DNA from: Xiphias gladius
Lineage: Eukaryota; Chordata; Actinopteri; Istiophoriformes; Xiphiidae
Length of the DNA stretch: 64,000 bases
Assembly: GCF_016859285.1 (NCBI RefSeq)
Contig: NC_053408.1
Span: 7,413,713-7,477,712, forward strand
Direction of reading: 5' to 3'
The notes beneath the pieces were generated by a model. The model searched no databases. It saw nothing but the letters and a program-made list of their open reading frames with translations, and was not told where the DNA came from. Position numbers and translations under genes: made by a program. Of this stretch, positions 34,204 through 40,845 are shown one piece after another. Within the stretch, counting starts at the first letter, position 1, and each line of letters starts with the position of its first letter.

Positions 34204-37200
34204 TCAAAATCTGTTGATAGTTTGGTCCAAAGAGAGTTGCAGGGACGGCTCCTCCACTCCACTGTAAGACAAACGAATGGAGCATTAGAAAATATATTAA
34301 TAAAAATACTCTGAATTACACTAAACCTGCTATTTCTATGGGATTTCCACTATAAAGCCTCAAAACAGTTTCAACATAGCTAGTTTATGGGAGTTTATTT
34401 AAAGGATGATACCGACGGTTTTGCATGTTTTAGTTCTTTAAATATAGTAACTCATATATTTTACAATCATTTCAACCATTTAACAAAGCAATCTAGTTCT
34501 AGTAGTCAATGATTGCGTAGTTGCTCTACAGAAAATTAATGGCAAACTATTTTGAAAATCATTTGATCGTTAAATTAATTGAAAATTCAGCAAGCAAAAA
34601 AGGCAGACCATTCTCTAGTTCCAGCTCCTCAAATGTGAGGATTTGCTGCTTTTCTTTCTTCTATATCATTGAAAAGTGAAAATCATTGGGTTGTGGACCC
34701 TTGGGCGGAAAAAATAAGCAAAGACATAACCTTAGCTCTGGGAAAACGTGATGGGCATTTTCACAATTTTATGACACTTTATACACTATACAAATAGTAG
34801 TTTAATGGAAAAAATAACCTTTAGTCGCAGCCCTAAAGCAAACCCTACATTGCTAGCTTGATACTCTGACATCCACACAAGCATTGGTTGCTGTAAATCA
34901 CAGTATGGCATAAAATTCGGGACTTGATACTCAATAACAGTAAAAACTGTCAAATTTACTGTCAAAGTTACATTATCGTTTACAGTGTTTTGCGTTAGCA
35001 CCTAGAACTATCTTAGTTTAGCATGTTTGCATCCAAGCATTTGCTAATTAATACTAATCCCACATTCATGTCATATCATTTGAACCATATGTAGAAAAAG
35101 CCAAGTGGCATAAACTGTTCAAGTCAGCCACCAACTTGTAGTTTCTGACAACGACTTGGCTGCAAATTTTAATCCATTAAATAGTTGTTGAGATATTTCA
35201 GTCTGGACCAAAGTGGTGGACAAAAAGACAGACAGACCCTAGAGCTGCTAGCAAGGCTAAAAATAAAGGCAACAAAATGTTTATTGCAACGGATTCACTT
35301 TATCAAGGTAGTTTCAAATCTCTGTACCCAGATTTTCTTAGCACATTTAACTGATATGACACACACACACACCTGAGGACATACGTAACACTGAGGATGC
35401 AGAGCGGCTGATGGGCGCCGGGTCTGGACTTGGAGGGTCGGACGCTGGGGATGACAGCACTGTGACTCTCCACCCAGACATAACCTCCACCTCTCACCAG
35501 GATCCTGTACTTACCACTAACTGACTGACTCTTCAAACACACTGCAGAGAAAGAGAGAGAGCGACAGAGAGAGGTGAAATCAGGTGTTTACAAGTGCGCA
35601 ATGCGTGTGCGCGCGTGTGTGTGCGTGTGTGTGTTTATGTGCATCACTACTCACAGTTCACATGATTTTTGGTCAAACAGTTTGTGTCCAGTGTGTGACA
35701 GAGATCATAGATGGAACGACCCCGCAGCTCCTCAGGACTGTAGCCCAAAAGCAAAGTCACTCTGCACAAGCACAAAAACACAAAGCAGTAACAGTATTAA
35801 CGATAACGATAACAATACTGCCTGATAAACTAGTCTTTAAGCACATGTTAACGAATGAATGATTCAAATAGGCTGCTTACGATGTAAGCTCCTTGCAATG
35901 ACTCAATAAGAGCACTGTGAAATAACAAGTCACTTAGTGTTACTTATTCAGGAGCAGCAACAAACCAGTTTAGGGTTCACTGATATTATGCAGTTGTAGG
36001 CCTAAAATTTAAAAAAAAAAAAAGGGAAGGCAAAAATGAAACAAAGAAGCAGTTACAGTGCAGCAAATAATTTTTTCATCTTTCTAAATATACCCCTTAA
36101 GATCCAGTTTTCTCTTTCTGTTTCAGCCTTAAGAAGCTCGAAGGAAATTAAAATTATTTTATTTCTCACTCTCGGTATCATATATTCTGATTTAGCTTGT
36201 TTCAGCTGTCTATACTGAGAGAAAATTCAACCTCAAGACTCAGTGTTTCTGATGACTGCATCAGTCAATCAAATCCAAATATTATTCTAAATATTCTAGA
36301 GGCGTTGCGCATCGTTTTATACATATTTTCGCCAAGATTCAGCCTGAGATACAGTATTTGGTATCTTTCAAAACTTTGGAGTCTCCACTAGACTTTAAAA
36401 TAATGTCAGTTTGAATAATGTTTGGCTGCACAGCGTGGATTTGTAATGGGTCAGTGCAGTTTAAGAGGTTTTAACAATAAAAAAACTTATTTCAGACAAA
36501 AGATGTATCTTTGCCTTATAAATGCACAGTATTGTATATAAAACTATTTGTTAGGAAATTTCTTGCAACTTCTTGGTTTGCATTTGCCTTGTTTTTGTGC
36601 ATTCGTTGCTTGGAACCAGCAGTTAAAACCGGCAGAACAGATATCAGTGCAGCACAGCAGCTGAATACAAGGGGAGGAGCATTGAGTTTCCTTTTTCTAA
36701 CTCATTTCATGATGTGCAACACTGCAGAATGAAATCACAACTCTTCCTTATTACACCGCAAGAGCAAAATAACTCACAGTACGCAGCTGCTCCTGTTTTT
36801 CAACTCAACAACTTTCACTCTGAGTGTATTTCATTGGGGCTGCTTTTTGCTTTTTATAAAACCATATTCTTACACCAGTACTTTAAGTAAGTAATGCCTC
36901 GTCTTCTAATTTGAGCAGGGTAGCAGTACTTTCACCTGGGTTTCTGCCGATTCACAGGTACTAATAATGCACAGATACAAGATGGTTGGTCCGTGCGCAA
37001 AGGCTGTCCACTTAAATAAATACTAACTCACCTGTATACAGTATGTATGTGTATACACTTGTGTAAATCACCTCTGGTCACAGTACGTGAACCTCATGTC
37101 CATGCTGTGCTGGCTGGTGAAAGTGTGTGCGCTGAGGAGTGTGTGTGAGAGGGGCAGAGGTTGGCAGGTTAGCAGCAGGCAGGAAACTGAAGAGGGGATG

Positions 37201-40200: not shown

Positions 40201-40845
40201 TATTTCCACTTTGTCAGAACTCAGGTAACTGAATTTCAGAAGGAAATGCATACTTGTTCTTACTTTTTTACTACGCATTTTCAGTTTCTCAGGCACCAAG
40301 GCCGCCTGTTATAAAATAAAATATCTCCAAAACCGCAACTTCAGAGGAACTCTGATGAAGTCTTTTTGCACTTTGACACAGACTTTTTTACATCATCTGA
40401 AAGGGTTGTAGAGAATTTCTCAACATGTAGGAAAGGATGTAATACTTCAACTAAAATGACACTGGTGTGTTAGTAAATCTCCAATTTGGGGTTATTTTGA
40501 TGATTTTCTTTTACTTTAATAGAGTACATTTTACTGCTAATGCTTTTTACTATCACTAAAGATTCTGGTTGTAGAGCTTTTACTTGCATTTTTCCAGTGG
40601 GATTTTGTTACCGTTACTTTTTTTTTTTTCAAGGGATTTGAGTAACTCTTCCACCATTGAGAACAGCGGTGCACTTAGTTAAGATTCAAATTATCTAGAT
40701 GCCCGGCGTGGTTACAGCACCATCTTTGGCCTCACCACATCACCTCAGTCACAGACCGAAAACATATCGAATGCACTGCGAAGATGGTTTTTAAAACAAA
40801 AAAGCAACAGGCAGCTTTACCTTCTCTTCTCCTTGTCCGCTGTCA
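34204..40845 (-). CDS. epas1: EPAS1/HIF-2-alpha paralogue truncated after PAS-B (9 exons, 374 aa)
   Basis: HIF-alpha proteins pair with ARNT to bind hypoxia response elements. Exons in transcript order: 40845-40820, 39665-39499 (or -39490), 38118-37871, 37757-37673, 37457-37357, 37235-37072, 35761-35655, 35541-35373 and 34261-34204. They join without a frame error, with phases matching what I recall of human HIF1A. The start MTADKEKRR is diagnostic of EPAS1. bHLH (about 10-64) has [16 protein letters not shown] and [20 protein letters not shown] begins near 113 ([39 protein letters not shown]). PAS-B follows ([39 protein letters not shown]). Exon 9 adds [13 protein letters not shown] and stops. 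The linker before PAS-A is long and Glu-rich, while the stretch between the PAS cores is about 19 residues shorter than in human. All ODD, N-TAD and C-TAD sequence is absent. PRKCE lies upstream on the same strand, as in human. The divergence suggests relaxed or altered selection. Confidence 0.88.
34480..34850. repeat. 'Gcagccct' non-autonomous element (copy 1 of 4), EPAS1 intron 8
   Basis: It ends in a agtcgcagccct-like terminus and has an inner ctccagctcctcaaatgtga-like segment. Related copies are at 52385-52600, 59360-59710 and 62425-62715. This is an hAT-like MITE by appearance. Confidence 0.5.
37559..37672. repeat. Long (CA)n microsatellite fused to the EPAS1 exon 4 donor
   Basis: About 113 bp of nearly pure CA. 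On the transcript strand exon 4 ends GGCAG and the intron is a GT array from its first base. It fills about half of the 215-bp intron 4. Confidence 0.95.
38370..38560. repeat. Interspersed repeat with telomere-like motifs, EPAS1 intron 2
   Basis: It is bounded by gtgaggacattttggccggt and gtgtcctcacaactagtata, which are partly inverted. It contains gattagggttaggcgaaggg and a second ggggttaggc, resembling TTAGGG telomere units. It looks like a dispersed fish element and not a telomere relic. Confidence 0.5.

Follow-up and report, generated by a model that had tools for sequence, protein, structure and literature searches.

Short HIF-alpha proteins confined to the bHLH and PAS domains are known from mammals, in which IPAS, a HIF3A splice form, has a short bHLH-PAS architecture and lacks both the ODD and the TADs. 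The closest described system is the truncated HIF2Ab of teleost fishes. In Townley 2022 (PMC9789988) it was mapped in salmonids (Salmoniformes), pikes (Esociformes) and Neoteleostei, was stated to encode only the N-terminal part of HIF2A, between a third and a half of it, and was referred to as a copy from the teleost duplication, with credit to Rytkonen 2013 for the label 'relic'. It was suggested there that, were a product formed, it might act as a negative regulator of oxygen-dependent expression in the manner of HIF3A splice variants. The truncation of HIF2Ab is repeated in PMC11370800 and PMC10805151, and a functional experiment on truncated HIF2Ab was not found among the papers listed from one open-access library, as judged by titles and the beginnings of abstracts. 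The same fishes carry a full-length HIF2Aa (EPAS1, epas1b in many databases), which shares the bHLH, PAS-A and PAS-B domains with the truncated form and resembles it up to exon 9.

The counterpart in the swordfish, a neoteleost percomorph, resides on the minus strand of a 64-kb stretch of Xiphias gladius DNA, hereafter the window, which is free of any N. Its coding sequence of 1125 nt, including the stop codon, extends from 40846 to 34204 and is assembled from nine phase-compatible exons, covering 6.6 kb, into a protein of 374 residues (Table 1). A preliminary description of this DNA had proposed nine exons joining in frame to bHLH-PAS-PAS only, which could be confirmed, with the start codon one base off the position 40845 given at the time; the spliced model likewise reproduces the stop 19 residues past exon 8 and the poly(A) hexamer following it. 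Exon 9 completes a split codon, adds 18 more before the stop, and is HIF-2-alpha-like, with 'SMDQT' falling within the alignment to an EPAS1 PDB chain. The splice sites, described as correct, follow the GT-AG rule in seven of the eight introns, but intron 2 requires a GC donor (CAAAG/GCAACA, window 39499, minus strand). A GT donor nine bases further, also in frame, would add three residues but is less consensus-like; the public protein corresponds exactly to the version with the GC donor. The coding sequence has a GC content of 52% (62% at third positions) vs 35% in the introns.

Table 1. Features of the truncated HIF2Ab locus of X. gladius and its neighbours (positions in the window)
Feature	Position	Strand	Content or basis
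Upstream neighbour, protein kinase C (epsilon-type) gene	44535..61546	-	tblastn exons; 5' part not found in window
Exon 1	40821..40846	-	Start codon, MTADKEKR(R)
Exon 2	39499..39665	-	Basic region and HLH; GC donor
Exon 3	37871..38118	-	Variable linker and PAS-A start
Exon 4	37673..37757	-	PAS-A
Exon 5	37357..37457	-	PAS-A
Exon 6	37072..37235	-	PAS-A end and PAS-B start; loop shorter vs HIF-2-alpha
Exon 7	35655..35761	-	PAS-B
Exon 8	35373..35541	-	PAS-B and C-terminal end
Exon 9	34204..34261	-	Short tail and stop
AATAAA, possible poly(A) signal	33936..33941	-	262 bp past stop
Downstream neighbour, open frame with start of Glu/Leu/Phe/Val dehydrogenase domain	22929..23363	-	Domain match

The model is identical over 374/374 residues (100%) to a public Xiphias gladius protein named EPAS1 isoform X2 (P0001). 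A protein search returned 226 matches at E ≤ 0.001; among the 120 listed, a length of 355-384 aa applies to 88, and those that carry names are mostly called EPAS1 and stem from acanthomorph (spiny-rayed) fishes, including Lampris, Myripristis and Centroberyx. By a filter on length, start, basic-region and tail pattern, 82 of these 120 were kept as complete models, the other 38 being partial, intron-reading or pattern-divergent; the resulting ortholog list comprises existing records, with species that lost the gene uncounted. The stop is located 4-8 residues past the DQ column in 76 of the 82 models, and exactly 7 residues past it in 53, figures to be read with the proviso that the filter itself requires the tail. 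The swordfish locus holds an intact gene that encodes bHLH-PAS-PAS and nothing further, and its orthologs are widely kept. It resembles IPAS in its short form without ODD and TADs and in the inhibitory role proposed for it; on the other hand, it is a locus of its own, as had been anticipated, and not a splice form, and it derives from HIF-2-alpha, not from HIF-3-alpha. The gene does not represent a novel type: N-terminal extent, ohnolog origin and neoteleost host are those of the truncated HIF2Ab in Townley 2022 (PMC9789988), no essential difference was found against that account, and gene and hypothesis were both already published. Of the interpretation given in the preliminary description, identity, dedicated locus and missing domains stand, and oxygen insensitivity and dominant-negative action are inferred; its novelty does not stand, since truncated HIF2Ab and the idea of a negative regulator, including the analogy to HIF3A splice variants, are on record. 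The swordfish gene is the ortholog of truncated HIF2Ab, the HIF-2-alpha ohnolog from the teleost duplication that was kept in euteleosts after losing everything past PAS-B; the preferred explanation, that it acts as an oxygen-blind partner of ARNT on hypoxia elements without activating them, has a probability of about one half.

The derivation from HIF-2-alpha that had been proposed at the outset is borne out by the scores against solved structures (HIF-2-alpha 320 bits, HIF-1-alpha 302, HIF-3-alpha 258) and by the PKC-epsilon-type neighbour; by the same two lines an origin from HIF1A or HIF3A is disfavoured. In mammals EPAS1 adjoins PRKCE, and HIF1A adjoins PRKCH. The kinase and C1 exons of a fused model from Scortum match the window, and its C2 part scores 184 bits with PKC epsilon vs 130 with PKC eta; the best solved structure for the PKC kinase exon of the window itself is PKC eta (93 bits), from a list that holds no epsilon kinase structure and is hence not decisive. 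Two public models, from Scortum (P0121) and Scophthalmus (P0122), fuse PKC with truncated HIF2Ab, which is probably an annotation error. The dehydrogenase frame on the downstream side we take to be glutamate dehydrogenase. According to Townley 2022 (PMC9789988), synteny groups the truncated form with zebrafish HIF2Ab, whereas sequence trees fail to group it with HIF2Ab of Otocephala. Our tree of 43 sequences behaves likewise: its 11 truncated sequences are monophyletic (support 100) and sit on a long branch nested in teleost HIF2A, apart from Otocephala HIF2Ab and beside the full-length HIF2Aa of Aplochiton (support 71). It was computed without a HIF1A or HIF3A outgroup, such that those origins lie outside its reach. 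At 33 of 36 diagnostic sites the Aplochiton protein agrees with the full-length form; it shares 88% identity with HIF2Aa of Centroberyx, and its placement is probably a long-branch effect. The position away from Otocephala HIF2Ab nevertheless counts against the explanation preferred here.

The absence of LxxLAP and of both TADs, asserted earlier from the reading frames, was corroborated by motif count, by Pfam and by tblastn of the window. LxxLAP occurs in none of the 120 listed matches of truncated type vs 111/111 full-length EPAS1-like proteins, and in the swordfish protein Pfam recognizes the HIF bHLH and PAS domains, with no match to ODD or C-TAD up to E = 1. With C-terminal halves taken from 111 full-length EPAS1-like proteins, the best E was 0.11 in the 64-kb window, and 4.7 on the minus strand at 23.9-34.2 kb; this downstream region, said to be devoid of such exons, yielded no remnant of ODD or TAD. 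In the control, the N-terminal halves matched exons 2 to 8 in 111/111 cases (E < 0.001), exon 1 in 0/111, and exon 9 weakly in 43/111; as exons 1 and 9 were poorly matched, short ODD or TAD remnants could escape tblastn. Hidden downstream ODD/TAD exons, considered as a candidate, were not detected in the window by this search. A further search, with a lengthened query admitting proteins of 411-1309 aa, scored 7999 candidates, of which 1132 passed. The best 120 of these 1132 comprise three members of the same lineage (P0098, P0121, P0122; 72-79% identity) and 117 HIF2A-like proteins at 44-47% identity, 111 of the 117 exceeding 700 aa; no longer protein of the same lineage with ODD or TAD is among them. 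Compared with HIF2Aa, the truncated gene thus lacks ODD, N-TAD and C-TAD; furthermore, its Cys25 is replaced, its linker is longer, and its amino-acid change is roughly three times faster.

The last difference was derived from 20 species carrying both the truncated gene and HIF2Aa, by way of mean pairwise amino-acid differences. For the truncated gene these amount to 0.051 (basic region, residues 9-23), 0.186 (HLH), 0.649 (linker), 0.207 (PAS-A) and 0.209 (PAS-B); the corresponding values for HIF2Aa are 0.000, 0.068, 0.530, 0.079 and 0.065. The rate ratio truncated/HIF2Aa has a median of 3.18 (range 1.11-9.21, 190 species pairs), which counts against the explanation preferred here. Every part is freer than in HIF2Aa, yet constraint is ranked among the parts as in a working bHLH-PAS protein. 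Of 271 contiguous stretches of 15 residues, just 2 match the basic region in conservation, and one of the two is that region itself. A random-site control for this region gave p = 0.0017 in the truncated gene and 0.006 in HIF2Aa, so that the basic region is favoured in both; being of the slowest type in HIF2Aa as well, its rank in the truncated gene may be partly inherited. Had the gene evolved neutrally, the tree of the 82 models should have accumulated ≈ 123 nonsense changes, a rough figure; moreover, these models are survivors by the way in which they were found. The gene does not look like one in early decay, in agreement with the preliminary description, in which nine open exons were taken to argue against complete decay. 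Seven ortholog clusters (P0015, P0017, P0063, P0064, P0070, P0076, P0099; source 'lgn', with 21 member sequences in all) have a longest contig of 1287-1920 bp, which is short for nine exons with introns and hence suggests spliced transcripts. All seven end in the exon-9 tail, P0070 being without exon 1 and basic region, and they look like assembled transcripts.

It could be argued that the gene is a slowly fading relic, intact and weakly transcribed, under some constraint and with little role left. Its faster evolution relative to HIF2Aa and its long stem branch in the tree are in keeping with this, as is the low expression in Townley 2022 (PMC9789988), where the transcript was not recovered from PhyloFish and is given as very low elsewhere. 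We consider this rather unlikely in view of the intact listed models in many acanthomorph species, of a constraint that depends strongly on the region, and of an end point that varies by no more than a few residues across 76 of the 82 models.

The DNA-binding region combines a conserved core with changes around it. Arg 13, Ala 15, Ala 16, Arg 19, Arg 20 and Glu 23 are identical in 82/82 truncated and 33/33 full-length models. HIF-2-alpha residues 9-15, which lie ahead of the basic region, are lost in over 90% of the truncated models, and Lys 29 is replaced by Val in 80/82; given these two changes, the affinity for DNA may be altered. The position of Cys25, a cysteine in 32/33 full-length models, is taken by Arg in 62 and by Lys in 20 of the 82 truncated ones. 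Work attributed to Lando in 2000 reportedly found that Cys25 makes DNA binding of HIF-2-alpha redox dependent, and the exchange presumably amounts to the removal of a redox-sensitive cysteine. An AlphaFold model of the swordfish protein (mean pLDDT 75, pTM 0.56) contains all three domains, connected by a linker of low confidence. Its best Foldseek matches are HIF-2-alpha chains in ARNT complexes, with whole-chain TM-scores of about 0.33 and an rmsd of 12-13 Å, values that leave the domain arrangement unconfirmed. Pairing with ARNT and DNA binding are probably kept. The simplest action of such a protein would be oxygen-independent competition at hypoxia elements: truncated HIF2Ab would pair with ARNT and bind hypoxia response elements (HREs); without the PHD/VHL prolines and without TADs, it would occupy both ARNT and HREs regardless of oxygen; and the occupied HREs would dampen HIF target genes, most likely at a low level or in restricted tissues.

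Pure sequestration, in which the PAS domains titrate ARNT or HIF-alpha in the manner of IPAS and DNA binding is unneeded, is a further possibility. The gene shares the short architecture of IPAS, and the PAS-A and PAS-B folds are both predicted and conserved. If DNA binding were dispensable, however, the basic region should drift, and it is among the best-kept stretches of the protein; because of this, competition on DNA is preferred, and sequestration on its own appears unlikely. A changed function, for instance oxygen-independent gene regulation with a new DNA preference, brought about by the modified basic region together with the lengthened linker, is more doubtful still. There are 36 sites at which one residue reaches at least 90% in the 82 truncated models and another in the 33 full-length ones, four of them in the N-terminal/basic part, and Arg or Lys stands for Cys25 throughout, but the core DNA-reading residues are unchanged. 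Going beyond competition at hypoxia elements, one may tentatively envisage that the gene is a maintained, dedicated oxygen-blind repressor of acanthomorphs and not a relic, whose rebuilt basic region (flank deleted, Cys25 to Arg/Lys) would hold hypoxia elements constitutively and set the threshold of the hypoxia response; we regard this as possible, with the odds against it.

An assembly or annotation artefact, or a recent pseudogene whose C-terminal exons were lost through a misjoin, finds no supporting evidence and was rejected as highly improbable: there are no N runs, nearly the same end point recurs in genome assemblies from many species as well as in contigs of transcript size, tblastn of the window detected no C-terminal remnants, and the best 120 of 1132 matches (411-1309 aa) include no longer lineage member with ODD or TAD. 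A recent pseudogene, in particular, it is probably not, and the gap or misjoin against which the preliminary description had cautioned did not materialize.

As a discovery the gene is ordinary, both its existence and its proposed role as a negative regulator having been published. The present contributions are the transcript-like clusters on short contigs, the conservation of the basic region and the exchange of Cys25 for Arg or Lys in 82/82 models. Should the protein prove to repress, many spiny-rayed fishes would possess a brake on the hypoxia response in the form of a gene of its own, which mammals produce in comparable form by splicing HIF3A, and the way in which hypoxia tolerance of farmed and wild fish is read from HIF genes would be affected.

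As for minor features of the window, an open frame of 149 codons at 10457-10906 (plus strand) has no Pfam match at E ≤ 0.01, and the HRE core motif is matched three times within the 2 kb preceding the start codon, a count taken without a control. A long (CA)n microsatellite directly follows the donor of exon 4, at about 37560-37672.
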